DNA from: Hypoxylon rubiginosum
Taxonomy: Eukaryota > Ascomycota > Sordariomycetes > Xylariales > Hypoxylaceae
DNA: 64,000 bases
Direction of reading: 5' to 3'
NCBI GenBank assembly: GCA_902806565.1
Contig: CADCXA010000021.1
Coordinates: 1,488,001 to 1,552,000 of the forward strand
Position 1 is the first letter of the stretch. Each line of letters opens with the position of its first letter. The translations under genes were made by a program, and so were the position numbers. Under the pieces are notes generated by a model. It made no database searches and was not told the origin of the DNA. It worked only from the letters and a program-made list of their open reading frames with translations. This document shows, in pieces, positions 2,667 to 43,408 of this stretch.

Positions 2667-3388
2667 GTACGTCCTCCATTATTAAATCGCAGCTGGAGTG
2701 GATCGTTTACGGCGATGAGGTCCTTGTCCAACTCTCCGTCGCCGCAATGGTACCACTTATCGTCTAGCAGGTAGACTACAAGCTCGTCGCGCAACAACAT
2801 CGTTGCTTTCCCATCTTAAGATTTACAATGTGACATCGAGGCTTGTGTAAAAAAAGACTTTGTGCTGAAGGATACAACGTCGACAGCTAAGAGAAATTTG
2901 CTTGTTCAAGTTTATGTGATGTGACGATTCGGCCTTGGCCCCCAATATCGGTAGGAGCTGTCGCTGCTTCATGCAACCCAATTCAGGCGCCATTGGGGGC
3001 AATTCATAATAGCTTGAGGTTATATGAAGATCTTCTGCGGCCAATCATACCCCCCCCTTAAGAGGAGCTCTCGTACTACCACATTCAACACATCGGAGGG
3101 TATCACAGCTCTCGATATAAGGCCGCCCCCAACATCATCCAAATCGTCATAGCAAATGTAACACACGTTACTCGTCTAGGGGCTGTGCAGCATTTAACCG
3201 AAACCATATAAGAATATAATTCTTGGCATTGTTGCGACGCCACAAAACAAATCAAGAGCATTTAAGGGGCTATTGGACCGAAGGGAGATTTGTGCTATAC
3301 CTTACATGTAGAATTCCGACGGATGCGATGATTATCTACTAGCTAACAACTCGTTCACTGTTTTTCATTCGGTTTTAATCCAGTCGCC
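2667..3388. other. Intergenic region, nothing specific
   Basis: The gap lies between the F-box gene and the membrane-protein gene. Short overlapping frames occur on the minus strand (about 2823-3044) but show no family pattern, no splice signals and no conserved-looking composition. The last 60 bases form a plausible leader for the next gene. Confidence 0.6.
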
Positions 3389-26630: not shown

Positions 26631-28827
26631 ATGTTCTCTCTTACGAGCCAGAACGTCTTCCTTACCTTCCTCCTCTCTCTCCTCCTCTTCGCAATCGGGT
26701 CATTCCTCGGCCCTGATTCCTCTCTCCTGGAAACGATCGCCGTCGTCCTGTCCGTCTCCGCGTACCTGTTCAAGGTGCGCCCGATCCTCGGCTTCGTCTT
26801 CCTCGGTCTCGTCTTTTTGGCCGGCGTCGCGGTCCAGGGCATTGCCAGTGAGGCAAACCTGTCGGTCTGGTATGTAATCCCATACCTCATCGCACAATCC
26901 TTCCTATGGGGGTTCACCTCATATGGTTGGTGCGTGTTTTGGGGGGCATGCTGCCTCGTGGGATACATCAACCATGGCCTGACCCATATCCTCTGGCATG
27001 TCCTGTACTACCCAGTTTTTGACTGGGTCAAGTGGTAAGTTATATCTTCGTTTATATCTGTCTTCAATATGTATTGGCTGTTGTCTTGTTGTATTGTTTT
27101 CGCAACATCATCGCTATGGTCTCTCCCCTTTTTACAACACCTTGCTACTCTTCACTTCACTCTCTACTTCACTCTCTACTTCACTCACTATTGCTTTTCT
27201 TACCTCTTGGCTACTTTCGCACTTCTCACTTGCTTGCTTTTTACTCTCCTCTCATTCAAACCTCACATCTCTTGTGAAGAGTGAATGCTAACTGCTATGA
27301 CTTACTAGGACGTTGACTGATCCCTACGAGTACTATGCTATTCGGACGCCTGGCTATCGCCAGAGCACCGATGGCTGGTCCTTCGTGGCCTCAGAGCTTC
27401 GGAAGCTTGACTGGGACCTCGACGTCGGCCCCCTTAACGACCTGTCCCTCCTTTGGTTCGATCGACTCGCGACCACCGCTCGTGTGGTCAAGAGTCAGCT
27501 CATAGACAAGCTCTCCGGGAAACCTGTCCCCCCCGCTCCTCTCACCGGTTATGCAGCCCTTCAGCTCCGGTGCCGCGGCGAACAGCGCGCCAAGAGAAGC
27601 CGCTTCGCTCAGCACTGGTTGCATACCGGAGAGGACTTGCCCGGGTTTCTCGGAGGCGACGGCTCGGTGTATTACAGCAAACTCCGAGCCGCCGAACGGG
27701 ATGCGCAAGCCGAAGAAGAAGCGGCGGACCAACGCCGTCAAGAAGCCAAGCGATGGCGCGAGTACTGGAAGCAGCACCCGGCGCAAAGGCTGGCGGTAGA
27801 CGAGTTGAATGCCTGGCGCAAGGCACCTCGGATGAAGCCGTTGAACTCGCCGAGCTACTCGGCGATGTCGACGTGGGTGTTACCGTCTCGTGGGGAGTTC
27901 CCACCGCCCCAGCCAGTCCCACGTCCAGCTTTTCGCCAGGGTCCGCTTCCACACCCGTCGCTTGTCTTCATTGGTCCGTCGCTTGGCACGCCCATTGAGC
28001 CTGTGGTCTCTGCTGTTGTGCCTTTTGCCCCGGCAGTCCCCGTCTACCCTTGGATCCCCGCGCCAGCTGCTCCCGGACAAGGACTTGGGCAAGATACTGC
28101 TCTCGTCTACGTTCCCGAGCAGGCTGTAGAACTCCCGTGTGAGCCCCAGCCCGCGACTGCTTACCTGCCCGTCGCTGCGCCTGTGTACCAGGGCGTTCAG
28201 CAGCAGTTCGCGGCGCTGTCGCTCAACGAGCCCGAGTTCGCAGTTGGCGTCGAGCAACCCCAGCCCGTCTACTGCGGCCCGCCTGCTTCCCTTGGCTGGG
28301 CCCCAGAGGTGGAGATGCTCGACGTCGATGACGCGGCCAAGTGGCAGACACTGCCGACGCAGGCAGCAGAGCCACGATCGAACCAAGTGCTTGAGGTGTC
28401 GACACAGGTCGGCAATTACAAGAAAGAGCAAGCACAAGAGCCACTACCAGCTCCTAAGAAGGCACCTGCTTCTTGGGAGTCTGCTCCAAAGCAAACTGGC
28501 AAGCCAGTCCAACCCCAGTCGTCTCAAGGTGAGCTGCTGCGCAACGCTGACGGCACTCCCTTGCTGGATCGGAACGGGAATCCAATCGTGGGACGGTCGA
28601 TGACCATCAACCTCAACGCGGGTGCTAGTCGGCCTCTGCCGTCCGCCGCTCGACCGTCCCCTGTGCAGGCGCCTCCCGCCCCTGTACAGGCACCTCCCGT
28701 CCCGCCCCAAAGCAATCCAGTCCTCGACGAGGAAGACGCCTTCGAAGAACTCGTCGCCCGCTTCATAGCAAAAGGCGAGACTGATGAGGGTGCCAGAGTC
28801 ATGGCATCTAAGCAGATGGGTTGGTGA
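26631..28827 (+). CDS. Unrecognised membrane protein with proline-rich cytosolic tail (640 aa, two exons)
   Basis: Exon 1 is 26631-27034 and exon 2 is 27309-28827. The 274-nt intron (donor GTAAGT, branch GCTAAC, acceptor ACTAG) is long for this genome and carries CTTCACTCTCTA repeats. The first 135 residues hold about four membrane helices (VFLTFLLSLLLFAIGSFLG, TIAVVLSVSAYLF, ILGFVFLGLVFLAGVAVQGI, VIPYLIAQSFLWGF). A conserved-looking segment (DPYEYYAIRTPGYRQSTDGW) and a charged helix (AERDAQAEEEAADQRRQEAK) follow, then about 300 residues rich in Pro, Ala, Gln and Val. The C-terminus contains GTPLLDRNGNPIVGR and a short acidic helical end. I do not recognise the family. It is the last clear protein gene before the structured-RNA region and is transcribed in the same direction, so that region could be its 3' extension. 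Confidence 0.72.
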
Positions 28828-29089
28828 TCGGCTGGTTGATCGTGATTTTTATCCGGTCTCCGCCTTTCGCCAGTCCCGATCTTCTTGCTCTCTGGCCCCG
28901 ATTCGTGTCTCCTGGGTTTGGACCAAACTGGCCTGTCAGTGCGCTCTCTAGTGGTTCCTTGGAAGAACACAGCTTGCTCTTAAGCTAGAACCTAACCTCC
29001 CTCCCTATCCCTCACCCCCCCTTCTCCCGCCTTATTAACATTCTAGCACTGGACCGGCCGATGCTCACATGATCGCTCAGTTACCAAAT

Positions 29090-29493
29090 CCTAGGAACCT
29101 CCTTTGTGGGGTGACGGAGGCGGAAAGCTTTTATACAGCTCAAACCAAACCCTAGGAATCCTTCGGGGTGACGGGTGCGGGTCGGCCGGTCGCCATTCGT
29201 TGTACCGATCCCTCATTCTGCGCGAGCGGATGACGGGTGAAGGCAACGCAACGTTTGGCCGCCCACCGCTGTCGAGTAGCTCATTAGTCGCTTCTTCGCC
29301 GCGTCCAGTTTCGACCCAGCGCCGGTGTGTGAACGGAACCGCTCTAGGGGAAGTTGACCGGATGTCTGGGAAGGATTGGCCGGCAAGTCGCCCGAGCGAA
29401 AGACCTTTTCCGCTCGAGGAATCCTGAGGAACCTTCGGGTGAAGGGAGGAGAGCCAACCCCTAGGAACCCCCTTGTGGGGAGACGGGAGGCGG
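29090..29493 (+). repeat. Four dispersed copies of a 30-nt CCTAGGAA...GGGGTGACGGG motif
   Basis: Copies lie at 29090-29123, 29151-29180, 29423-29449 and 29460-29493. Each starts CCTAGGAA (third copy CCTGAGGAA), has a T-rich middle, then a variable GGGGTGACGG core and a G-rich end (GGCGG, GTGCGG, GGAGG). In copies 1 and 3 the variable part closes a stem (CCTCC/GGAGG and CCTTC/GAAGG), and copy 4 pairs CCCC with GGGG. Copy 2 pairs poorly. They lie immediately upstream of the hairpin array and look like related RNA elements. Confidence 0.55.
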
Positions 29494-29667
29494 TGTCGGA
29501 TGAGATCTCTTGGGCATAGTACCCTCGAGACAATGATTCCGGTTCGGCGAATGGCTGGTTCTGAGTATTCTGAGTGATCCTAGATCAGGAGGTTGCGAGG
29601 ACTAGTCACAGTGCTAGTATGTTACGAATCTATGTACCGAACTACTCCGTGTAGTCTCGACAATGTC

Positions 29668-30211
29668 TCGTCCCGGTCCTGGTTCGCGCCGGCCTTCGAG
29701 CTTATACATATTTTCGACAAGGTCTCGACTGCGGTCTTGTCCACGCCGCACCGTCGAGCATCCATCTCGCCAATGTCTCGTCGCAGCCCCGTTCTCGGCT
29801 GCCCTTCGAGCATCCGGCAACTCTTGCCCGGTCTTGTCCTCGCCGGCCTGCAAGACTCATGTCGACAATATCTCGTAACAGTCTTGTTCGCGCTGTCCTA
29901 CGAGTATCCCATCGACAACCGCTCGGTTACGGCCTCGTGTTCTTGCCGTCCTTCGAGCACCCAACCTTCGACAATGCTCGTTGTGGTCTTGTTCGCGCCA
30001 CAACTCGAGCCCCTGGACAACGCTCAGCCGCGGTCTTGCTTTCGCGCCGCGCCTTCGAGCACCCTTCTCGACAACGCTCGGATGGACTTGTTCCTCGCCA
30101 TCCACCGAGCATCTCGACAATGCCTCGTTGCGGTCTTGTTCTCGCCGCCTCTCGAGTGCCACCCCACCCCCGACAATGCTCATCCGGTCTTGTTCGCGCC
30201 GGCCTTTGAGC
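29668..30211 (+). repeat. Array of 11 covarying RNA hairpins, about 51-nt period
   Basis: Most units read CGACAATG (or close), CTCG, a variable stem, a conserved loop (consensus TCTTGTTCGCG), the complementary stem, CCTT and CGAG. Unit starts are 29668, 29725, 29778, 29824, 29873, 29923, 29978, 30024, 30078, 30125 and 30180. Variable stems (5'/3') in order: CCGG/CCGG, TGCGG/CCGCA, GCAGCC/GGCTGC, CCGG/CCGG, ACAG/CTGT, ACGGC/GCCGT, TTGTGG/CCACAA, CGCGG/CCGCG, GATGG/CCATC, GCGG/CCGC, CCGG/CCGG. The outer clamp CTCG/CGAG changes together in unit 4 (CTTG/CAAG) and unit 11 (CTCA/TGAG). Paired changes in most copies show that the fold is kept while the sequence drifts. Conserved loop and flanks suggest a repeated protein- or RNA-binding site. 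Confidence 0.9.
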
Positions 30212-30237
30212 CACTGGCAACTGCCAGCGTCAGTGGG
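30212..30237 (+). ncRNA. Hairpin closing the array
   Basis: CCACTG (30212-30217) pairs with CAGTGG (30232-30237) directly after the eleventh array unit. Its loop differs from the array loop, so it may act as a 3' boundary. Confidence 0.5.
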
Positions 30238-30443
30238 AGTCTGTTGAGATTTCGGCCTACAATTCGGGTCGAGTTGTCTCCCGCCAGTGTACTTGAGGGA
30301 GTACATTGTGCGGGTGCACAATGAGGATCACCCTACGCTCTCTCGGACCCGGTACAGGGCGGAGCGGCTGCTACCACTCAGCCCCAGTCCATGACGGGGC
30401 GCGGCCTGCTCGCCTGTGTGCGGTACGGGAGAGCGCATGGGAG

Positions 30444-30478
30444 CCCTGTCTCGAGTCTTAGGGGGACTCGAGACAGGG
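30444..30478 (+). ncRNA. 14-bp perfect hairpin
   Basis: CCCTGTCTCGAGTC (30444-30457) pairs perfectly with GACTCGAGACAGGG (30465-30478) around a 7-nt loop TTAGGGG. It is part of the structured region. Confidence 0.75.
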
Positions 30479-30497
30479 AACCACACCTGTCGATACA

Positions 30498-30760
30498 CAT
30501 GTGAGAGAGACACCAAGTCATGATGGCACCAGCAAAGCCTCATGGCCACCGCGGGGCCCCTTCACCCACTCGCCCAGACAGGAGGCAGAACTTCAACCAT
30601 ACACACAAAAAAACACCAATACACCAACACACAAGAAGTTCGCCTCTGTCGGGCTAGGGCCTCGCGGTCACCTGTCGGGATCGTGGACTTTACACCTACA
30701 ACTACAACACACTACCATAAACAACTACGTCCACGATCTCGACCTTGTCTCTCTCACATG
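30498..30760 (+). ncRNA. Long-range 15-bp stem enclosing a 10-bp hairpin
   Basis: CATGTGAGAGAGACA (30498-30512) is the exact complement of 30746-30760. Inside it, GATCGTGGAC (30679-30688) pairs with GTCCACGATC (30729-30738) around a 40-nt loop rich in A, C and T and almost free of G. This nested domain structure is expected of a folded RNA. Confidence 0.65.
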
Positions 30761-30851
30761 CGACCATGCCCCCAAAACAACTACCCCAACAACTAACTGT
30801 CCCAGGAGTTCCGAGTCAACGAGTCCAGCCATGTGAAGAACGACCAACAAC

Positions 30852-31020
30852 GGATGAAGGTGCTCTCCCCTATACACCACCATAAAAACACCACCATCAC
30901 AGAAAAAAAAAATAAAATAAAATAAAAAAAAAATTAAAAAAAAAATTAAAAATAAAAAAGAAAAGAAACCACCAAAAAAAAAAAAAAAAAAAAAACACCA
31001 AGGTGGAGAGCCCTTCATCC
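30852..31020 (+). ncRNA. 16-bp stem with a 136-nt A/C-rich loop containing poly-A runs
   Basis: GGATGAAGG (30852-30860) and GCTCTCC (30862-30868) pair with GGAGAGC (31005-31011) and CCTTCATCC (31012-31020), leaving a single bulged T. The loop contains CACCACC words and long A runs with scattered T (30900-30995). The loop is nearly free of G, so it should be single-stranded. Confidence 0.7.
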
Positions 31021-31441
31021 CGTTCAAAGAACAACTACTACGTCCACCACGGTCATACTGACCATCAAGTCACGACCGTCACCAGTCTCAACGACAACGA
31101 TGGCCAAAATAATTAGTGAGAGGGGTCTCTTATACACCACACACCAAAGAGCAGAGCCCCTGGACGTATTCAACCAAAAGAAAAACCCACCAAGGCCATT
31201 ACAACAACCAAAACAACACCGCCGCCACTGTTTTCGCCGTCTACTACCAACCATCAACCATCAACCTCAACTACCAGAAAAAACCCAAACCCGACGGCAT
31301 TCTCCCTTAGCAAGGTCGAGAGCACACCACTACACCAATACCAACACCAATCGCTGCAACCACGATGGAGACACTCTCGCCTCACCCGGACACCACGTGC
31401 TACATAGGGTGTCGGTAGGTGCGGTACCAATCGAGGTGGAG

Positions 31442-31508
31442 ATTGTATGATTAGCACACATCCCGCCCTCCTCCTCCTTCTTCTATTGTTGTGTGCTAAT
31501 CATACAAT
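31442..31508 (+). ncRNA. 19-bp perfect hairpin
   Basis: ATTGTATGATTAGCACACA (31442-31460) is exactly complementary to 31490-31508, with a 29-nt pyrimidine-rich loop. It is the longest perfect stem in the region. Confidence 0.8.
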
Positions 31509-31888
31509 AATCCAACCCTCGTGAAAGTACTGTGCCTGTCGTCCTCTATCGTAGTATGTGGGCTGCAGAGCCTACCGCGGTACTGCAGCAGTCCGGTCAC
31601 CAGGCGGTAAACAACTCTCTTTCTCATCATCATCATCATTTTGAGAAAAAAAGAGACAGAGGTTGAGAGTGTCTACATCAACGCAGACAAGGAGCACGGT
31701 CGGGCTAGCGCATCATCGCTCGTAAGTATCTCCTATTCATTACCTCAACTTACACTACCGTTCATATGCTCACATATATATAGGCCCGAATGCTTGGTCG
31801 CATTCACATGGACTCGGACTCAAGAACTCAGGAACTCAGGGACTCAATCGGGGGTAGTTGTTTGTCGCGGCTGTCCCGGTCAACTCAG

Positions 31889-32046
31889 GGGCGCTCTTCC
31901 ATCAAAACCATGGTAGAGAGCGTCCAAACAGAACCGGGAGGGGGGCCAAGGCAGCTCTCGCTACCACCACAGCTGAGAGCGCCTCAAGGCACCCACGAAA
32001 GCCCGACATTGGGAGCATGTGTCGACGTATCGACAGAGATGGTGCC
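31889..32046 (+). ncRNA. Further stems, including a CGTA tetraloop hairpin
   Basis: GGGCGCTCT (31889-31897) pairs with AGAGCGTCC (31917-31925), including one G.T pair. GGCACC (31988-31993) pairs with GGTGCC (32041-32046) and encloses GTCGA-CGTA-TCGAC (32021-32034). Confidence 0.55.
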
Positions 32047-32417
32047 GGCCGTTCACTTGACACTCAAGACTAAGTCCAGGATATATCATCGTCACCTGGA
32101 GATCTTTCATCTTACTACCAAAACACACACAATTCCAAAGTCTTGATCAAAACAACCTCATCTTCACCAACAAACAACCAACATAACCTCAAGTGTCGAA
32201 CGGTCGGTCACCATCTGAAGTAAGGCGGCTATATGCCTATGCAGATAGTAAGTCTCATTTATTCAACTCGCTTCCTTTGCTCATACTAACTAAGCTCATA
32301 GATTTTTGAATGCTTCAAACACCTACAAAGCATAAAAAGCTTTGTTAAGAAACATCGTGTTGTTTTCAATTCCACAACAGCACTAGAACTCCAACATTCT
32401 CAAGGGCTAGGCTGAGA

Positions 32418-32736
32418 CTGTTGGATGAAGAGAGCATCCAACAGCTCTCTGACCAGCTCAAGAGATTTAATGCCGAAATTCGCAAGTCGGCCAATCACGC
32501 GTCCTTCAGATGCGCTGGCGCTTCCAAACCAAATGATGCACCACACTTACAGACTTAGAAAGGCCCGAAGCTAGAAGGTGAAGAGAGCACCTACTAGCTG
32601 AGCTATCATGGAAGCGCCGTTCAAAGAAAACTTTCACCTTTTCCCTCATCTACCAACTGAGGTACAGCACAAAATCTCGCTGTTGCAACTACGAAAGCAT
32701 CTACAAAAAGCCAGGCTCGAGGATGGGAGAGCATCC
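32418..32736 (+). ncRNA. Hairpin family with AAGAGAG apical loop
   Basis: Hairpin 1: CTGTTGGATG (32418-32427), loop AAGAGAG, CATCCAACAG (32435-32444). Hairpin 2: GCTAG-A-AGGTG (32570-32580), the same loop AAGAGAG, CACCT-A-CTAGC (32588-32598). Hairpin 3: GGATG, loop GGAGAG, CATCC (32721-32736), with weaker outer pairing. Hairpin 2 is itself enclosed by GGCGCTTCCA (32517-32526) pairing with TGGAAGCGCC (32609-32618). The same loop on different stems repeats the logic of the 29.7-30.2 kb array. Confidence 0.7.
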
Positions 32737-33096
32737 GACAGCACTTGGCCAAGGTACTGTCCAAGATCAATCCAACTTGGACGTACACCAACAATCACAC
32801 CCAATCCACATCAACCTAACATGAGCTTGAGGAGGCTCTAAAGAAACAAGAGGAAACCTTGACTTCGGTCAACATCAAAGCCAGAGGATCACAACTATAT
32901 CCAATGGTGGCGGTGGCAAGACTTCTGCATACCCCTCCCTCGGCACTTCCAGGCTATTGTCTGTCACTACATACCTAAACATCATCATACGATAGGAAAT
33001 CTAGTGGCACTGCCCTCCGAGTCATTCATGGATCGTCTCCGGTCATCATGTTGGCTCAGGGGGGTAGGGGGGCAGGGGTAGCAGAAGCCTTCCGCC

Positions 33097-33196
33097 TAGC
33101 CTCCCCGCGGCACCGAAAACTCCCATACCAAAACATTCGGTGCCTGTGGGAGGCTATAGGCACCCCTTCTTATGAAGAACAAAGAAGGGGGAGCCT
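33097..33196 (+). ncRNA. Two adjacent strong hairpins
   Basis: TAGCCTCCC (33097-33105) and GGCACCGAA (33109-33117) pair with TTCGGTGCC (33136-33144) and GGGAGGCTA (33148-33156). Next, AGGC (33158-33161) and CCCCTTCT (33163-33170) pair with AGAAGGGG (33183-33190) and GCCT (33193-33196). An outer pairing TGTTGGCT/AGCCAGCA with one T.G pair may close both. Confidence 0.7.
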
Positions 33197-33406
33197 CTGT
33201 CAGCCAGCACCATCGACTAGGACCCAATAACATTAACATCCCGCCGAGGTGCTGGTGGCATTGATCAAAAACCAAAACCAGAAAAAAAACAAGAAAAAAA
33301 ACCAAGAAAAAAAACCAATACACACACACACACTCATTCATTCATCCAACAAAAAAAGAAAACAGAAAAAAAAGAAAAAAGAAAAAGAAACCACCATCAG
33401 AAAAAG

Positions 33407-33475
33407 GTAGGGGAGGTTTCTCTACACTCAAGAACCTCCAATCCAGCCCCTAACTTAGGGGCTGAGAAATCCTAC
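33407..33475 (+). ncRNA. Candidate three-way junction
   Basis: GTAGG (33407-33411) pairs with CCTAC (33471-33475) and encloses two hairpins: GGAGGTT/AACCTCC (33412-33418 / 33433-33439) and CAGCCCC/GGGGCTG (33444-33450 / 33458-33464). It is preceded by about 120 nt of A-rich linker (33270-33395). Confidence 0.65.
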
Positions 33476-33572
33476 ACCATCATGAGCAAGAGCCTTGTCA
33501 TTCCGTCTCAAACCACCACTGAAAAAACAACCTTCTGAAGACAAAATTTCAGAAACACAAGAACAACCTCGA

Positions 33573-33652
33573 TAGAGGCGCGGCAATGCCTCTACTAGTT
33601 ACTCGAGTGGCTAGCCACCACAGCCAACTGGACCAAGAGCTCACATGGTCCA
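33573..33652 (+). ncRNA. Two 7-bp hairpins
   Basis: TAGAGGC (33573-33579) pairs with GCCTCTA (33588-33594). TGGACCA (33629-33635) pairs with TGGTCCA (33646-33652). Both follow an A/C-rich linker. Confidence 0.5.
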
Positions 33653-34448
33653 GGCCAAAGGCCATATGCAACAAGCGCCACGAGCTCCGGCCCAACCAAC
33701 TCCGCTAGGCGGGCCACCAGACTACTCCAAATGCAGATATCATGGCCAGCCAGAGGGCGGATGGGGCCGCCGCGGTGGTGGTCCCCGAAAAGGACATCGC
33801 CTTGGTTACGAGAGGGCCCTCGACGACTCTGCGAGGGACCAAACAAGGACCTAAGGTCACAAATAAGCCTGCTGCTAAGGATTCATTCCCTCTGGGTAGA
33901 AACGCCAATACTATGAAAACAAAGTGAGTTTTTCTTCGGGATGGGAAGACAGAACTTCAACTAATATATTCTGCAGAAGCCAATCCTCCCTTCTAGCCGT
34001 TGAAGGCAAGTCTCAGTACACATCCACTGCCAATGGTGAGTAATCATCTGCATCCCTTCACAGAACTATTGAACCAAACCGATCTAACGAAGTTGTAGGC
34101 TAAAGGGCGCCGCCCGGCACTCTTTGATGAGTTGTGGTCGAGACCGAAAGAAGGTGGTGGTTCTACTTCTACCTACGAGCCCATAGCCCCTCCAAGATGG
34201 GAGCCCGATTGCCCAAGAGCTAGGCTTCGGCCAGTACCAGAGACTCGCCACGCCCTTCATTAATTGGCTTCGACGCTCGACAAGCCGGCACAGAATATAC
34301 GGCGATGCGACACAAGGTCCCGGCATAATGCCTCAAAAGATCGAAATTAAGATCGAGGCAGGCCTAGTTTGGCTACTACAGCCAGCCAACAAGACCACGC
34401 TGTCCCAGTTCAGGGGGAAGTGCCTTACCCGTGGCTCACTGGTAATAC

Positions 34449-34669
34449 CGACCTTGCTCTAAGCTTACTTTGCTCTAAGCTTGGGGCAAGGTCGTAGAGC
34501 CACCTGCCTACCCTGAAGTGCAATGGATGACCGATAACTACGGCTCTTTTGCCTTCTCAAAGCAACAGAACAAACTCGGACGCTGCGACACCCACGTCCG
34601 CCCTGCGGGACCTGCAGACAACCAAGGCCGCGGGACCCCAGTACTTTTCAATCAACAAGTGCTGGGGTC
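34449..34669 (+). ncRNA. Two long hairpins near the 3' part of the structured region
   Basis: CGACCTTGC (34449-34457) pairs with GCAAGGTCG (34486-34494), and inside it AAGCTT pairs with AAGCTT (34461-34466 / 34477-34482). GACCCCAGTACTT (34634-34646) pairs with AAGTGCTGGGGTC (34657-34669) through 12 Watson-Crick pairs and one T.G. Confidence 0.65.
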
Positions 34670-35300
34670 GGGGGAACCCCCTAAAGACGGGCCGCGTGCC
34701 ACCACCTTTGGCACTTGCAGACTCTCATGTAGAGGGCTTCCAGACGCCCTGCATGAGCGGGCTGCGTGGGAAGTGCCACCCGAGAGTTACCGACTGGCGA
34801 AACTCGGACATCTATCTACGCACAGCTTCTTCCACACCCGCCGAGGGGGACTTCAAGAAAGCACCAGCTACTCAGAACCATGAACTGGGCCCCGCGAACC
34901 CAGGAGCTGTTCGGCTCTCTGATCTTGGCTATGGACGGAGAGAGCTCCAGGAGAGGTAAGACCATCTTGGCTTCGCTTCTTACCAAGACTCGCATATGCT
35001 AACCTTCAGTTTAGGTGCGGGCGACTCTTCCAAGACGGCCGATAACCACCCGCCAGCCGAGTCGGGCGTCGCGCCCCAAGAAATACAAGAACCTACACTG
35101 CCTCATGGCCAACCGTCGGACCAAACAAATATAAGAAACCCTACAAAAACCAATCGAATATCGAAGGCCCTCGAAGCCCCCGAAGCGGGCATGACTCAAA
35201 AAAAAAACCTCACGAAGAGGATGCTGCAGTGCCAGCAGGCAAGGCACCTCTATAAAAGACTGCCACATCCTTTCTTACACTACTACATACTCAAGGTAAC

Positions 35301-36805
35301 CAGGGCGCCCCTTTTCTAAGTCTACATCTCCCAGCTCGCAAGATATGAAACTGACCTAGCATAGAGATTAGGAACTGACGACCTTAGCTAAACTACCATT
35401 CCGTCCCCGAGCCCACTTCGAGCTCCCAGCAAAGGGGGTCCGCCCCGTAAGTAACAATACCACCCCCCATCCCCCTATCAACTTTTTCGCAGCGATGCTA
35501 ACTTCTTTACACGCACAAACCCCTCCGAGTATACCGAAAGACGACACCCCCCGACTGGGAAAGGAATACGGTTAGAGATAAGGGATAGAGTGGGAGGATA
35601 CGAAGACAGGACTCGTGGAAATACCAAGCTTGGTGGTAGATAGTTAGATAGGTACATAGTTAGATGGTTCAATAGTTACGTAGAAAGGAGCGAACTCGAC
35701 ATCATTGCTTGCCTTTAGACCCAATACACGATTCGTTGCTTGTTACTTACCGAGTATATCAGCCTCCAGGCTAGGTGTAATTCATAGTGAGCGAGCACAG
35801 TAGAATCTGGCTTGTCAAAATCGGCGTAGGTATCTCAGGTAATAGCAATTCTAACTACCTAACCCACATTGTTGTATCCCCACCACTTACTACTCTTGTT
35901 GTCAAAGAGTGTCTTATGTCGCATACAGTATTTGCTCTTTGTTATACTTTAAGAAGACGGAGTCTAAGTTAAGCAGACAGTTGAATAGAAAAGGAGGACT
36001 TATCGCAGTTGGCACTACATCACCTTCATTTACGTTACTTCAAGACTTGAACAGAACTGATCCTTTAAAGACCGGTGTCTCCGATATCATAGGCAAAACT
36101 CGTCAACTTCATCTGATTATGTAGCTACTCGCTAACGTCCCATGCTGGCCTAGCCCTATAGTAAGTCTTGCCGCGTATTCCGTTACAATAGTGTGTGGGG
36201 TGGAAAAGAGAAGAATAAAAAAAAGAATCGAAAAAAGCCCATGCCAATTATGCGATGCTTCCAGTACCTGATTCATCGCTTTGAATGAAAAAAGAGACCA
36301 GTAACGCCACCAGAAGATACCCAGCCCGCCCAGTCACGCTTAATTTGCATAATCCCCTCCCCCTCATACCCCCCCTTCTATACCCTGATCATCATTAAGT
36401 CCTAGCTAGATCTCGGAAACAACAATCGTCGCGTAGCGACAACGGTTGGAGTTTACTGGTTTACGGTGTCGTGGTTGGGGAAATTTTCTCGCATTCATCT
36501 CGCCTCTAGCACTTCGCTCCTAATCCGCCACGGCGCAGATTAAACCGTGTACGGCATTAAGAGGTAAGGCTTCGGAGTAGGCTACCTAGTAGACTACCTA
36601 AAATCGATCCTGATGGAAACGGGTAGGCCGAATTCACAAGACGAGGCACGCAAGACTGTATCATAGAACGCCGCGACCGGATATACTGGCGCCTATGATG
36701 AGGGAGACTGACGTCGTTGATGCAATAGAGTAAGGGAAGGCCCGGGTATCTCAAGATCGTAGAAGAATAGCTAGAAGTACGCGGTCCGTCGGCTGGACTG
36801 CACTA
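35301..36805. other. Intergenic region, about 1.5 kb
   Basis: No supported gene and few strong inverted repeats, in contrast with the preceding 6 kb. Composition returns to ordinary. Short frames near 35478-35672 and 35909-36124 have no features. Confidence 0.55.
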
Positions 36806-38465
36806 TCAAGACTCGGAGCTCACAGTCGCGCCGCCAAGGTACTCCGTGAGCGTTTCCGGGTCCCGAATTGGGGCAAAGTAAGGGTGAGCCATCGCCTCCT
36901 TGGCAGTGAGACGCTCCTAGAATAGTTATTAGTGGACGGAGTTGTTTAAAAAATAGGAATGCCACAAACCTGATGGTCGTATCGGAGTAACTTGTCGAGG
37001 AAATCGATAGCCTCATTGCTGACGAATCGTTGGTTCTCAGTGTTGACGAAACTATGCCAAGGCTTCTTCGCGAAACGGCCAAGGATATCGTCGTATTGAG
37101 GGTCTAGCTCGATCTCGTACTTGTCTAGATAGTCGAAAAGATCATCGGTACCTAAGACCTTGGCGATCTTGACAAGCTGGTCCGAGTTGCTGTTTCCGTG
37201 GAAGAATGGTTCCTTGCGAAAGATCATAGATGCGAACATAGCACCAAGACTCCACATATCTAAGCTGTAATCGTACTCCTGAAAATCAACCAGAAGCTCT
37301 GGTCCCTTAAAGTAACGAGATGCAACCTAAAGAAACACGTTAGTGTCATCTAAGTCCATAGCACCTAGAATCGTGGTTTGGTAATAAAATCATGGACGTG
37401 CACATATAGGCATAACGACAAATAGACTGCTAGTCTTTAGGAGAGGGAAACGCGCGCTAAGGGGTCTGATGAACATACCCGCACATTGTACTCGGTCCCA
37501 GGGTGATAGAACTCGGCTAAACCCCAGTCGATAAGACGTAACTGGTGGACACGTGAGCAGCATTCTCCTAGAATAGAGCCTCCTTGAATAGGTGTAGCAA
37601 GCATACCTTCCTGTTCTCATGATCGATCATAACGTTATGAGGCTTCACATCCCGGTGCATGATTCCCTTGCTGTGGCAGTAGTCAAGGGCCTTGAGGAGC
37701 TCGTAGATGTAGTATCGTACATCGATGTCGTTGAACTTGGGATAGAGGCTTCGGAAGTCGGTGTTGTTCACGTACTCGAATATGAGAGACGGAGTCTTAC
37801 TCTACCCGACACAGTTCTGGTTAGCATCAAATTTTCGTCCTCATAGTAGAAATAGATAGAATATCCCCGAGACTAGAAAATAGTACCCGACTCCAATACG
37901 ACTGGGAGAAGAGGAGAGGAAAAGGTTGCCACTGACTTGATTGTCTCTAACGACATCGAGAAGAGCGACAATGTTGGGACCACCAGAAAGATTCTGAAGA
38001 ATCTTGATCTCTCGCTTGATCTTCTTCTTCTTGACCGGCTTAAGGACTTTGATGACGCATTTCTGGTAATTGATGACATTGATTCCTTCGAAAACCTCCG
38101 AATATTTTCCCCGGCCTATTTGTACGGTACAGGATTAATGACTGGTTAGGCAGCGCTTGGGACAAGTGGTGACGTACCGATCTTGCGAACAACCTCGTAG
38201 TTTTCCAGAACACCCCAGCCTACGTAGCACAAAATGTGTCAGTATTGGCAGTTTACCAGTAAAGATGGCTATACAGGCGTAAGGGACGGGAGCATCCAGC
38301 CCAGCATGGGGATGACGGGAAGAACTGGAACAAGCGGGAATGAAGTGCAACTTCATTCAGCCTGATCGGAGCCAACTTAGATTTCAACCTACTGATATTC
38401 ACGGAGTCGTAATCCCAATAGCTCCGGGGCATGTTCTGGTTGACATCGGCATAAACGCGGGCCAT
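36806..38465 (-). CDS. cka1: Casein kinase II catalytic subunit alpha (339 aa, seven exons)
   Basis: Minus strand exons: 38465-38393, 38219-38178, 38115-37937, 37801-37607, 37541-37479, 37326-36970 and 36916-36806; introns run 53-173 nt. The product starts [21 protein letters not shown] and contains the glycine loop [11 protein letters not shown], the CK2-specific basic stretch [13 protein letters not shown], the catalytic loop HRDVKPHN, the CK2 DWG in place of DFG (LIDWGLAEF), and the C-terminal kinase lobe ending TVSSES. It is a constitutively active Ser/Thr kinase of nucleus and cytoplasm that forms a holoenzyme with CK2 beta. All frame joins are exact and the length matches fungal CK2 alpha. 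Confidence 0.97.
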
Positions 38466-39651
38466 GATGGGCGAATGTTGTCGAGCCGAGGCTCAGCGCA
38501 GGTATGGGATACTGTAACGACGGCGCGGATAATGCGGTCGCTGAACCTTGGTCGCGGCCTCGGTGGGAACGTGGCACGCAATGGGCGCGGGTTGACGATG
38601 TTGCCAAAATCGTTGTGATGGTGGGATTGTGAAAGTGGGATGTCGGGAACCCGGTCCAAAGCAGAGAGGCTTGCGGTGGAGTAACGGTGGAGAGTGGCGT
38701 CTGGTCTGCTGGTCTGGCAGTCTGGGCAGCCCTGTGCAGCCTGGTAGGTCTTCTGGATAACGGATAAGGTGTGGAGTTCCAAACGTTAATACGTACCTTC
38801 TATCCCGGTCAAACTACGGCAACTCACAGGATATGTGAATTACTTAATATCACATATAAATGCATGCATGTATGCAAACGCATAAGCTCATGACATGACG
38901 GCATTCAAAAGAACAAGAAGCTTTTTGAAGATACAAGTAGGTTTTAAGAATGTATTATTATTTTGGCCGATTCCTCTTCTATCACGTGCCGAGCAATCAA
39001 GCGAAGATTAATTGCTTCCTTTGTCATGAGAATTCTGCAACAGCCTAGAGTTTGCTTCGGATGCAGTGCTACTCCTACCAGTCTCCCTACTAGGTATCAT
39101 GAGGGACAAAGAGGACGGCGATGACACCGTAAGAGGTACATATATATAAGTAATAAGTCTAGCCCGCCCCATCTGCTGAACAATGTTTTCGTGACCGGGC
39201 TAGTTTGATGTCATCGCTTAATCCGAAACTGGATGCGTAGGCCTGGTCTCGAGAAGTGTTCTTTGTTCCATTTATCGGTTAGCATTATCTGGTTCGAAAA
39301 TCTAAAACCCGAAAAATTAGCGGTAAATTCCAACAGCTGCAGGACTAAATTATACACGAATGGAACTTGACGCATTCAGAGAGAAGATTAAAAGATTCGA
39401 CATACATCCGCGTAATAACCAACTATCCATCAGCTGTGGGCCAACTTCCAGCGGTTGCAGACTTCCGACTAAGGATGACGATACAAAGGTTCTCATCACG
39501 GAAACAATGTATACAAAGAATGGCAAGGATTGTAATACGAACCTACTCAGACACCACGAAAACCACGTGGATTTCAGGACGTGCGATCCATCAGTAGCAT
39601 GAATAATGCATTCATCGTAGAGCTGTCAACCACTCTTTAGAAAGAGAAACC
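38466..39651. other. Intergenic region upstream of CK2 alpha
   Basis: Likely CK2 alpha 5' leader near 38466-38800 (GC-rich), then AT-rich sequence. No gene is supported; short overlapping frames at 39360-39600 have no features. Confidence 0.55.
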
Positions 39652-40454
39652 TCAGTCGTCGTACGAAATCCGTCGTCTCTGTGCCGCAGGGGTGGCAGCC
39701 GCCTCTTGAGCCTTCTCGAGCTCGTCGTAATCCAAGCTGTCCATACCAGCTTCGACCACATCCCACGTTCTCTTGCGTAAGTCGGGCTTCTTCTCGGGGT
39801 TGAACTTGCGCTGCTCCTGCTTCTTTCGTCGAGCACGCTGTCTCTTGATGCGTTTTTCTTCGGCTTTTGTAAGTTGTGGCGCTTCTGCCTCGATTTCTCC
39901 ATCCTCGCTGCCGTCCTCCACCTCCCCATCATCTTTGTCGTTATTTATAACACCCTCATCGTGAATAGGGGGCGGCGACGTGGATTTTGGGTCTGTGCCG
40001 AGCTTAGCATCCTCCTCCTCCTCCTCCTTGGCGTCTTCTTCCTTGGCTTCCTGCAGTAACGCTGCGGATTTCTGTTTGATCTTAGAAGCTTTGGCCTGGG
40101 CACGACGTAGAGACTCGAGTTCAGAGTGTCGGAAGATGGCGATTTGCTCGTCGGTTAGGGTTCGTTTAACACCGTCTGGATAGTAGCCGAGGCCATCATC
40201 CTCTTCGAAATATTCTTCATATTCCTCGTAGTGTTGATTATCATCTTGAGCGTTTTCCGGACGGAAGAATTGAGCATGGAAAAATTGGACTGCTGTGTGA
40301 GAGAAATGCGCGTCGTGAAATGAGTCGATTTCTGCCTGCCTAGACAGTCAGCATTAGCCAACACGAAGGAGGATGGATTAGCAGAAAAATAGCATACCTG
40401 AGATACTTCTGGGACCTGGAATAGGCTACCAGGAGTTTGCAAAGCAGCCGACAT
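39652..40454 (-). CDS. DUF3807-type fungal protein (246 aa, two exons)
   Basis: Minus strand: exon 1 is 40454-40398 (19 codons, MSAALQTPGSLFQVPEVSQ), the 62-nt intron is 40397-40336, and exon 2 is 40335-39652. The N-terminal block after the join (AEIDSFHDAHFSHTAVQFFH) and the central block DDGLGYYPDGVKRTLTDEQI, then IFRHSELESLRR, are the conserved core of this fungus-specific family. The rest is highly charged, with Lys/Arg-rich helices (EEKRIKRQRARRKKQEQRKF) likely to act as a nuclear localisation signal, and a short conserved C-terminal block (LRKRTWDVVEAGMDSLDYDE). Function is unknown; a nuclear location is inferred from composition. Confidence 0.8.
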
Positions 40455-40858
40455 TGTTTCGTAGATTAGCCGTTTGCTAAGGCATCCAATTTGTAGGTAG
40501 AAGGTGAAAGATGAAAGTGTTGGACCTGGCGCTCTTAATAAATTCAAGAACCTTAAGCTTCGGCCCCACTACGTGAAGGCGCGTCACGTTCGACCTCGCT
40601 TATATGCATGCCTAGTGGGCAAATAATATATAATATTCACGTTAAGTGCAGTATGTAACTAAGAGATTCTACTTGATTCGATGTAAAGACTCGGGCTCAG
40701 GAGAAAAGGGGCGACATGACGGCTCAACATAAATCATGACTACCTACCACCCTCTTCAAGCTCGAGCACGACGAATCTGTAGAGAGGGAAAAGCGGCATA
40801 AAAACCCGAGATAGTTCCATTATAATATTTGATCTTAGGGTAAAATAATACTATTTCT

Positions 40859-41636
40859 ATGGTTAGCACACAACTCGAGAAGCTTCAGTCGATCGGATAT
40901 GGGGTTATCGCAGATAAAATGGGCGCTGACAACGATAACAGTTTGTCAATGTACGCCAGGTCTTTCGTTACAGAGGCAAGCAATTTTAACAACCCATTTT
41001 GTCTAGGTTCCGCCGTTTTAGGTCCCCTATGCAAGGAGCGCAATGACGAGGTGAAAGAACTGCCAATTGTTATACTTAACAAGACATGTCACACCATGGG
41101 AAAGGCTAAACGACGAGGAAGAGGGATATTCTCAAAGCTCATGTTCTCAAAGCTCACAAATCGGAGATCACGCGACTGGCGGATTCTTTAACGATATCCC
41201 CGGGGGTCCGCCGTGATTTATTATGATGACCAAATTCGCGGGTTTAACTTCGTCCCTTCTTCTTGGGCAGATTGGGAGGCTTTTGCTGACAATGATGACC
41301 ACGATTACCCGAGCTCTGCAGAGAAGCGCTTGTTGATAGGTAAATTAAACCCGTCATTAGGTCCACGGTCCGGAGTTAGATGAATAAATTCAAGGTTCAA
41401 GCCTCGTAAGTTTAAGCTATGAATTCCATTCTCTATATGGCACCTTTTTAAGGTTGAAGCTCAATGCCTTTAGGACAATATGATTTCAACGACTTCTTAA
41501 TGGCAGAAGTCCAAAGGCGAGATGAACAGGATAAGGATTACGAGGAGCCAAAAAAAAACAGAATAATAATGATAATGTGGTGATGCAGAAGATTGAGGAA
41601 GAATGTAAGATTGAATGGGACAAGTTGATAAAATAA
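40859..41636 (+). pseudogene. Probable decayed gene with several frame breaks
   Basis: An ATG-led frame at 40859-41191 is followed by in-register coding-like pieces. One reads DDQIRGFNFVPSSWADWEAF near 41225-41350. Another begins at ATG 41467 (MPLGQYDFNDFLMAEVQRRD) and continues only if the A-run near 41552-41560 is skipped, to VMQKIEEECKIEWDKLIK and a stop at about 41636. The pieces look like protein but do not join by splice signals. I read this as a pseudogene of an unrecognised protein. The first frame may be unrelated. Confidence 0.35.
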
Positions 41637-42039
41637 AACCTAAAGTCTATTATTCTCTGAGGGGAGAGGGTTTGTTAGGTAGAAATTCTATATTACGTAA
41701 TCATATAGCACGGTACCTCCACAAGTTCCGGCATTATGAAGTTATGAATCTAAGTGTTCACTTAGCTACCTAGATACAGAGCCGTCCTATTTATATCATA
41801 AATATCGTAAAGGTCGTTAAGTCGTAAAAGTTATCATGTCATAGTTATCCCGCTGAATGAATGCACCGACGCCACCACCCCTGTTTGGCCTGATCGAAAC
41901 CAGATCAGGTACAATGTCAGTTGACACAACCGACCTCCTATTCATGCAACAAGTAGAATAAAAACTGTGTCCCTTGGTGTTCTTTAATTGTGGCATTTAA
42001 CAGATAGAATGGCCACAGGAATCCGAAATAACTTGCTAC
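41637..42039. other. Intergenic region
   Basis: AT-rich spacer between the decayed gene and the 3' end of the coiled-coil gene. Nothing specific is seen. Confidence 0.5.
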
Positions 42040-42761
42040 TTAAGCCTGAGTTGTGCTCAAGAGCGCTAAAGCACTCTGGAAGGCTCTCACAACTTCGGAT
42101 ACTAGATTAAGTCAGTTGCCAAAAGTCAGAACAAGAAGGATGAGTCAACACTCACGGTGTTTCTTCTTCTGCGACAGCGTTTGCTCAGAAAGGCGTACGT
42201 GTCTCTCCCGAGTCTGTAACCGCTTGATCGCTCTCTCATTGTCGTGGGCGGATGAAGCCTGTGCCCAGACATTAAAGTACTAGTTCCATGTTAGCCACAA
42301 TTCAGGGGTCACTATGCCTGTAAGGTGGCCTTGCATACTTTGACCAGATTGTCAAACTCCTCTAACAATATTTTCTCTTGCTCATCGGCCTCCTGCAGGG
42401 CCTTCGTGTAACGGTTCTCGAAGTCATCCCAGTCGAATGCGGCGATGTGGCCTGGGCTTTGCATCTCAGATCTGTTGCTTCGCCGGTTTTGCGGCTCAGG
42501 AGTCCGGGTCTGACGTGGACGCTCTATGTTCCTAGCTGGAGGTAGGTCTTGACTCTGCTGCTCACCCTTGATGGCCTGCGTACGAAGGGGCGATTGCGGT
42601 TGAGAGAGTAGTTTGACCGTTACATCTTCGACGGGCTCAATAGGATCGGTGTCATCGCCTAATTGTGTTGGTAGTTCCACCATCATCGATTGATTCAACG
42701 CCATTCCATTTTTGGTAGGCGATGACTTCGCCGGTGACATTGATCTAGGTGTAGTAGACAT
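42040..42761 (-). CDS. Uncharacterised fungal protein with C-terminal coiled coil (202 aa, three exons)
   Basis: Minus strand exons: 42761-42339, 42279-42156 and 42101-42040. The introns (59 and 54 nt) join in phase, giving ...DNLVK-YFNVWAQASSAHDNERAIK...KKKH-LSEVVRAFQSALALLS. The first 100 residues are disordered with many SP/TP sites (MSTTPRSMSPAKSSPTK). From FDWDDFENRYTKALQEADEQ to the end the protein is helical and coiled coil. An acceptor 9 nt further on is also in frame, but the chosen one keeps EVVRAFQSALALL, which fits the family pattern I recall. The role is unknown. An ACGCGT box lies 112 bp upstream, the same word as before AME1, so cell-cycle expression is possible (inference). 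Confidence 0.75.
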
Positions 42762-43408
42762 GACGCTGGTTCTACTTTGGAGTATATGCTGTCCTTATAC
42801 TAGGTGATTTCCTTGTGTGATGGGTAGAGGACAACCTGATCTAGAATAGTCTGTTACTATAGAGAACAGACGACGCGTGACAAGACCAGATGAGGCTAAA
42901 CAATCGATCATCTGACAACTCTTACTTCCTTGATTATAAAATCAAAGCGAAACAATAATATTGTCTTCAGTAAAAAAGAAGTCTTTAAGCTTATACGTAT
43001 TTAAGTGTCGCACCTTGCATCAGACAACGCGTCGCTGCCCAAGAACAAGTGATCGATCATTGATCGGATACTCGAGGTCTTGGCGAACAAGGCCGATAAG
43101 ATCCGATAAGCCCGATAAGACACGATAAGGTAAGCCAAAGCCACCCCTCAACGTCACAGGGAATCTGTTACAGCAATTCAAACTCAAGTTCACATTCGCC
43201 AACCACTGCCTGTTATTTCACCAATGGCCCTGCTACCTTCGCCTCTCCTCCACCAATAATTATATAGCTTTCTAATAAACCGAAATGCAGCTTAGTTTCT
43301 TTACCACCCGTATAGCACGTCCTCGAGCGACCCATTGCCACCCGTGAAAGTGCGGCACTAGGCATCCTACCGAGCTAACGCACAGGCCTATCCTACAAGT
43401 TGCTCACG
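42762..43408. other. Divergent promoter region with ACGCGT and GATAAG sites
   Basis: The region lies between the coiled-coil gene and ATG14. It contains ACGCGT at 42873 and 43027, a GATCGATCATTGATC palindrome-like stretch near 43050-43066, and four GATAAG sites (listed separately). No gene is present. Confidence 0.55.
43095..43129 (+). promoter_or_regulatory. Cluster of four GATAAG sites, 9-10 bp apart
   Basis: GATAAG occurs at 43095, 43105, 43114 and 43124, each preceded by C. The spacing is one helical turn and the cluster lies about 285 bp upstream of the ATG14 start. GATAAG is the core bound by fungal GATA factors such as AreA/Nit2/Gat1, which activate nitrogen-starvation genes. Autophagy genes are known targets in yeasts. 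Regulation here is inferred from site density and phasing. Confidence 0.6.

Follow-up and report, generated by a model that had tools for sequence, protein, structure and literature searches.

Eleven covarying hairpins in a structured locus of Hypoxylon rubiginosum point to a candidate fungal non-coding RNA

Introduction

What kind of molecule keeps eleven successive hairpins paired while their stem sequences change, and what might it do with them? The question is raised by a locus of the ascomycete Hypoxylon rubiginosum, which we analyzed within a window of 64,000 nucleotides (assembly GCA_902806565.1, contig CADCXA010000021.1, positions 1,488,001 to 1,552,000), the whole stretch of DNA to which all window coordinates refer. 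A preliminary description made from the letters alone had recognised the array and had taken the DNA to be fungal. The latter is confirmed by the kinetochore and autophagy genes of the window (Spc7, Scm3, Atg6 and Atg14) and by the match of Atg6, 94% identical to a Hypoxylon texense protein, which supports an origin in the Hypoxylaceae. We know of no fungal structured non-coding RNA like the array.

Architecture of the array

Unit search, folding and alignment delimit the array and its units (U1 to U11) as follows, x denoting a mismatch here and below:

29655..30214, plus strand: array of 11 hairpin units
29667..29700, plus strand: hairpin U1, CCGG/CCGG
29724..29758, plus strand: hairpin U2, TGCGG/CCGCA, clamp CTCGAC/GTCGAG
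29777..29810, plus strand: hairpin U3, GCAGCC/GGCTGC
29823..29854, plus strand: hairpin U4, CCGG/CCGG, clamp CTTG/CAAG
29872..29904, plus strand: hairpin U5, ACAG/CTGT
29922..29957, plus strand: hairpin U6, ACGG/CCGT
29977..30009, plus strand: hairpin U7, TTGTGG/CCACAA
30023..30059, plus strand: hairpin U8, CGCGG/CCGCG, outer AxC mismatch (CTCA/CGAG)
30077..30109, plus strand: hairpin U9, GGATGG/CCATCC, AxG at the closing position
30124..30156, plus strand: hairpin U10, GCGG/CCGC
30179..30210, plus strand: hairpin U11, CCGG/CCGG, clamp CTCA/TGAG

The units start at 29655, 29713, 29765, 29814, 29860, 29910, 29966, 30013, 30066, 30112 and 30168, with spacings of 58, 52, 49, 46, 50, 56, 47, 53, 46 and 56 nt. 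The mean of 51.3 nt and the number of units agree with the eleven copies about 51 nt apart described before, and the earlier coordinates, 29668-30211, are correct to about 15 nt. Each unit consists, in order, of a linker near YCGACAAYG, an outer clamp (CTCG/CGAG in most units), an inner stem, and a loop of mostly 9 nt that most often reads CUUGUUCGC or near it. The loop is closed by U.G in eight units, by C-G in two, and by AxG in U9, where four pairs lie beneath. Counting a U.G or C-G closing pair, the inner stem has five standard pairs in 10 of the 11 units; several units add one or two inner pairs beyond the five. If these extra pairs are counted, the nine different stem sequences reported before are found again; by the four pairs adjoining the closing pair there are seven, CCGG and GCGG each occurring in three units. 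Clamps had also been said to change together, as they do in U4 and U11, but not in U8, whose outer mismatch makes the statement that pairs are restored in every copy slightly too strong. A model built from the units recovers all 11 by construction, and its next match lies at 43067-43100 on the minus strand with an E-value of 0.03.

Pairing, covariation and conservation

Aligned in one register of eight pairs (three outer, five inner), the eleven units provide 88 cells. Standard pairs occupy 87 of them (98.9%) compared with 87.6% ± 1.8 in shuffled units, the covariation score is 0.423 compared with 0.177 ± 0.030, and 11 cells are changed on both sides compared with 2.5; none of 500 shuffles reached any of these values. 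Four pairs contain a both-sided change (1.7 in shuffles, 5/500), and a measure of further pair types is not elevated, 458 of 500 shuffles being equally high. Sliding the register by one to three columns leaves 22-47% of the cells paired. The outermost inner pair illustrates the exchange, being G-C in five units, A-U in three and C-G in three. An alignment-free test, in which every 5′ arm was folded with every 3′ arm on a constant loop, gave matched inner arms a summed energy of -52.5 compared with -19.8 ± 5.5 for permuted arms, a value as low being found in none of 200,000 permutations: exchanging arms between units abolishes pairing. Since the covariation is one among paralogous units with a common history, the shuffle and permutation figures are not exact probabilities.

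Column identity, calculated with U3 placed one position off the register of the pairing alignment, is 82-100% in the linker columns CGACAA and 73-100% in eight of the nine loop columns compared, the remaining one being 45% identical, and only 36-45% at the two outermost inner-stem positions. Loop and linker are what the units share most closely, as had been noted for the loop and its flank, and their conservation beside stems that vary but still pair argues against mere drift of a repeat. Given how far pairing, covariation and arm matching lie beyond their randomised controls, which bears out the earlier claim of selection on an RNA fold, we are highly confident that the fold of the array is under selection.

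Kissing between loop and linker inside units was considered and rejected, its summed energy of -33.9 being no better than that of permuted partners (-36.8). The same holds for kissing of the loop with the linker of the next unit.

A structured locus of about five kilobases

A larger structured locus on the plus strand, with the array on its 5′ side, extends to about 34.8 kb and had been missed in the preliminary description. Its main elements downstream of the array are known from the folding statistics of one genome:

29640..34800, plus strand: region, array included, in which local RNA folding is in excess (folding z-scores)
30444..30478, plus strand: 14-bp perfect hairpin (stem search)
30674..30743, plus strand: stem of 15 bp (93% complementary) around an A/C-rich loop of 40 nt (stem search)
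31393..31562, plus strand: 170-nt hairpin (MFE -86.5) whose perfect 19-bp core lies at 31442-31508 (stem search and folding)
32411..32745, plus strand: hairpin trio spaced by about 150 nt, with differing stems and the loops AAGAGAG, AAGAGAG and GGAGAG (folding)
34449..34494, plus strand: 19-nt arms, 89% complementary (stem search and folding)

In 120-nt windows over kb 30-35 the mean z per kilobase is -2.1, -1.9, -1.1, -1.3 and -1.6 on the plus strand and -1.15, -2.09, -0.05, -0.46 and -0.97 on the minus strand, kb 31 being stronger on the minus strand (-2.09 compared with -1.93). The lowest plus-strand 5-kb mean, -1.71, starts at 29761, and the best minus-strand mean, -1.20, at 27601. Elsewhere in the window the most extreme 5-kb mean is -0.51, and among 13 control stretches of 10 kb from the genome, both strands considered together, it is -0.67. 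The strongest single elements are the 170-nt hairpin (window at 31441: z -6.7 plus, -6.4 minus) and the window at 34441 (z -7.3 plus, -2.9 minus). Flat pieces separate the hairpins inside 29.64-34.8 kb, the longest at about 33.64-34.28 kb. Perfect stems of at least 9 bp number 10 in 28.8-35.3 kb compared with 2.9 ± 1.8 in 20 shuffles (maximum 8), while the flanks hold 22 on the left compared with 13.9 after shuffling and 17 on the right compared with 13.4. We infer that 29640..34800 is the body of a structured, largely non-coding transcript. The trio at 32411-32745 is a possible second, small hairpin family; the word GAGAGC occurs eight times in 30.2-34.8 kb, where 1.0 is the single-word expectation.

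Strand and candidate introns

Over 29.64-35.2 kb the mean z is -1.34 on the plus and -0.89 on the minus strand (Wilcoxon test on every third window, p = 0.0015). When only Watson-Crick pairs were used for folding, juxtapositions of GU and AC inside helices stood at 6:0 in the locus, or 5:1 with windows offset by 100, compared with 6:14 summed over three shuffles, 26:19 to the left and 24:26 to the right; these are small numbers. A strict-helix version of the strand test offered too few cases to separate the strands. Taken alone, the array folds better than its shuffles on both strands (z -3.64 plus, -2.90 minus). Between 28.8 and 36.5 kb, strong matches to splice patterns number, as raw counts, six on the plus strand, with five distinct acceptors, and three on the minus strand. 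Those on the plus strand define the following candidate introns:

31722..31783, plus strand: GTAAGT..CTCAC..TAG
32248..32301, plus strand: GTAAGT..CTAAC..TAG
33924..33976, plus strand: GTGAGT..CTAAT..CAG
34036..34098, plus strand: GTGAGT..CTAAC..TAG
34956..35009, plus strand: GTAAGA..CTAAC..CAG

Joining their flanks brought no systematic gain in folding: with intron bounds set by eye, 0-4 nt off those listed, the junction z-scores are 0.09, -1.15, 1.29, -1.14 and 0.63 for 60-nt flanks and 1.41, -1.46, 1.12, 0.19 and 0.83 for 90-nt flanks.

An independent RNA or a part of something else

Could the hairpins be the structured untranslated region of a protein-coding mRNA and regulate it, either as the 3′ UTR of the upstream gene or as an extended 5′ leader belonging to a downstream frame? 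An open frame on the same strand (27313-28827) stops at 28827, about 0.8 kb before the array, and windows at its end (28.6-28.8 kb) have z-scores of -1.4 to -2.9. Downstream, the frames in 34.5-35.3 kb are weakly coding, with best-of-six-frames scores of 0.09-0.14 in five windows, and a small protein may be encoded there. Against this reading, 28.84-29.6 kb shows no excess folding in the fine z profile, the candidate introns all lie downstream of the array, and the neighbouring frames tested have no Pfam domain. The suggestion made earlier that the array extends an upstream membrane-protein mRNA is not supported: the same interval is flat, and the upstream frame itself, proline-rich and free of Pfam matches, does not look like a membrane protein by eye. 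Across the locus the best-of-six coding score is mostly at or below 0.1, with values of 0.11-0.14 near 30.0 (in a minus frame), 31.2, 33.6-33.75, 34.2, 34.5 and 34.8-35.1 kb; two known genes, both of which were also in the training set, score 0.16 and 0.20. Pfam gave no match for the frame that crosses the array or for three frames in 34.2-35.3 kb. Beyond the locus, 35300-43400, up to the Atg14-like gene, comprises about 8 kb without an open frame of at least 150 aa, introns disregarded. On this evidence a UTR is improbable, though the strongest of the alternatives, and we consider an independent non-coding RNA likely.

A second alternative places the symmetry in the DNA, as an array of palindromes serving as binding sites or forming cruciforms, or as quasi-palindromes corrected by template switching, without selection on RNA. 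It would account for folding on both strands and for the seven of eight counted pairs that show no G.U in any unit. It is at odds, however, with the U.G that closes most loops and with the plus-strand folding bias over the locus; mutational bias alone does not predict a conserved loop and linker on varying stems, and no comparable 5-kb stretch occurs among the control stretches. We regard it as unlikely.

We judge no more favourably a cluster of small-RNA precursors, miRNA-like or giving rise to hairpin siRNAs, with the array as one part. Long near-perfect hairpins such as 31393-31562 and 34449-34494 lie downstream of the array, and the only Rfam matches in 28.8-36.5 kb are four to miRNA families, all below threshold at 19-25 bits compared with gathering scores of 65-88. 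The array stems, however, comprise some 9-11 bp, which is short for Dicer, and it is their arms that vary and their loops that are conserved.

The array in Hypoxylon sp. FL1150

Among foreign proteins, the 246-codon open frame across the array matches one, 'hypothetical protein GGR53DRAFT_469533' (P0122) of Hypoxylon sp. FL1150, with an E-value of 7.7e-27 and 42% identity over 67%. Further orthologs did not emerge: the array frame as query returned only itself and P0122 at E-values up to 1, and P0122 returned itself, the window frame and one match at E 3.4 that we take as chance. P0122 runs through units U3 to U11 in order, with extra copies, and has no Pfam match. It corresponds to the window chiefly in frame 3, but at U6-U7 the counterpart of its residues around PSFQAPDNARCGLVLATARA is in frame 2. 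The reading frame is not conserved between the two species, and the slip between relatives speaks against a conserved protein. A repetitive protein-coding gene, as the FL1150 annotation has it and as the long frame and its match would suggest, is very unlikely in view of this slippage, of unit spacings that are mostly not multiples of three, of the missing domain and of best-frame scores of 0.06, 0.02, 0.14 and 0.01 in the four array windows (three of them minus frames), and coding predicts no in-register pairing. Most likely, the record is a mis-annotated structured RNA array.

Read in this way, the peptide can be used to evaluate pairing in a second species. We recognised 12 FL1150 units by hand, via the peptide and in the annotated part of the array, and back-translated P0122 to ambiguous letters, most third codon positions being unspecified. 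Of the 60 inner-pair cells (five in each of 12 units), 59 can pair. Permuted arms have a mean of 9.6 impossible cells, none of 50,000 permutations being as low as one, and slid registers have 11-26. A softer score, which averages the chance of pairing across the possible codons, stands out less: 136 of 50,000 permutations matched it. Where the peptide fixes both letters, 20 of 21 cells pair, and the exception is an AxG closing position as in U9 of the window. The registers of units F6 and F11 were set by homology to the window; with their initial registers, 4 of 60 cells are impossible (232 of 100,000 permutations as low) and the softer score is reached by 3,165 of 100,000 permutations. The preliminary description had named non-pairing stems at orthologous loci as the finding that would speak against a selected fold, and as far as the peptide allows, the FL1150 stems are compatible with pairing.

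As a set, the outer clamps of FL1150 are weak evidence of pairing: all 48 cells could pair, yet the same is true in 5,704 of 50,000 permutations. Single positions differ between the species. At the third outer pair of U4 the window has T-A and FL1150 has C-G if the Arg codon is CGN, the fourth outer pair of U11 is A-T in the window and G-C in FL1150 on the same assumption, and the outer AxC of U8 is A-T in FL1150; the third outer pair of F6 is CxC if its Ser codon is TCN. The FL1150 array and Atg6, which are 19 kb apart in our window, probably share a contig there too, given that the contigs of both records are 125,235 long.

Copy number and genomic surroundings

The genome searched comprises 48.27 Mb in 70 contigs, and BLAST with the array found one place only. 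A 17-nt loop pattern allowing up to three mismatches occurs at 246 places compared with 152 for a reversed control; at two mismatches or fewer there are 27, six of them in the array and the rest unclustered, clustering of the three-mismatch places having been judged only among the matches listed. For 30.2-34.8 kb no paralog was found among 53 other genome matches, which are 52 A-rich segments (50 covering query 684-790 and two covering query 3134-3176) and one relic. Long A-rich tracts lie inside the structured region at 30903-30995 and 33274-33390.

The relic, 87 nt at 34296-34382, is 84% identical to G000:C29:274426-274514 (L007), and both read close to IYGDATQGPGIMPQKIE; judged from this likeness it is a remnant of protein-coding sequence within the structured locus, and its window frame has no Pfam match. 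Directly upstream of the array, at 29084-29493, a G+C-rich motif that begins CCAAAYCCTAGGAA recurs in three to four diverged copies, which may be a further repeat family within the same RNA; BLAST of 29040-29640 found no other place in the genome.

Comparison with known RNAs

Rfam 15 detects two tRNAs at or above the gathering threshold in the whole 64 kb, both outside the locus. The earlier statement that no such fungal RNA was known is consistent with this result, and the parts of the literature on fungal, tandem-hairpin or Hypoxylon non-coding RNAs that we retrieved describe no such RNA. Telomerase RNA of filamentous fungi carries a template, CTAACCCTAA, complementary to TTAGGG repeats. Assuming this repeat for the host, we rejected it as a candidate, as the locus has no template-like site and no Rfam match; with one mismatch the template occurs once in the window, at 40155 and outside the locus (3.5 expected by chance).

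Closer parallels lie in RNAs that work by repetition. In bacteria, the decoy RNAs CsrB and RsmZ present one loop motif on many stem-loops and titrate CsrA. The array likewise consists of many stem-loops with one loop motif, whereas CsrB and RsmZ are bacterial and have GGA loops. The giant bacterial RNAs ROOL, GOLLD and OLE are long, densely structured and non-coding; the array differs in having no Rfam match and in lying at a fungal nuclear locus with candidate spliceosomal introns.

The A-repeat of mammalian Xist, itself a long spliced RNA, has been proposed to form short stem-loops in tandem with spacers between them; the repeats are needed for protein recruitment, and Xist also holds degenerated pieces of a protein gene (PMC2796953). 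Our array is similarly a tandem of stem-loops with spacers, and its locus also holds a protein relic. The same paper finds Xist repeats pairing with each other (PMC2796953), whereas each array unit closes its own hairpin; moreover, the array is fungal and the likeness is one of description. In Schizosaccharomyces pombe, meiRNA (sme2) carries numerous motif copies proposed to lure the RNA-binding protein Mmi1 (PMC4077057). The array, too, comprises many motif copies in a fungal candidate long non-coding RNA, but the meiRNA motif is given there as a hexanucleotide (PMC4077057) and that of the array is a covarying hairpin, again compared by description. The resemblance drawn here to Xist and meiRNA is one of a possible way of working.

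Proposed function and implications

On balance, we favour a structured non-coding RNA of fungi, not described before, in which the array would offer repeated loop and linker sites to a putative RNA-binding protein. In the array a single conserved unpaired motif is repeated many times within a structured context, as it would be in a decoy or scaffold, and a multi-copy binding site had already been named as the simplest reading; a conserved loop and linker on varying stems supports such a predicted site. The array would be part of a long, plus-strand and probably spliced non-coding RNA, in which every unit may offer one recognition surface, the CGACAAYG linker together with a CUUGUUCGC-like loop, carried by a short stem that would be free in sequence as long as it pairs. 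A protein that reads loop and linker would leave this pattern, in which the stems vary yet pair while loop and linker stay constant. Repetition, with eleven copies in the window and the 12 units recognised in FL1150, would make the RNA multivalent, so that it could collect many molecules of one putative RNA-binding protein and act as a decoy (sponge) or as the scaffold of an RNA-protein body.

In eukaryotes, few large non-coding RNAs have a structure that covariation strongly supports. More tentatively, and with doubts of our own, we consider that the locus may be the first representative seen of giant fungal RNAs (about 5-6 kb) that are spliced, densely structured and conserved in Hypoxylaceae, a class in which several hairpin families (the 11-unit array, the trio with AGAGAG loops and the long hairpins with A/C loops) would scaffold an RNA-protein body.

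With the array, eleven natural variants of one site are available in one molecule, and a second species adds to them, so that a single unit could be used at once as bait for its protein. The FL1150 case further illustrates that a structured RNA can stand in databases as a 'hypothetical protein'. Open frames of unknown proteins with frame-slipping, self-pairing repeats may therefore offer a route to more such RNAs.
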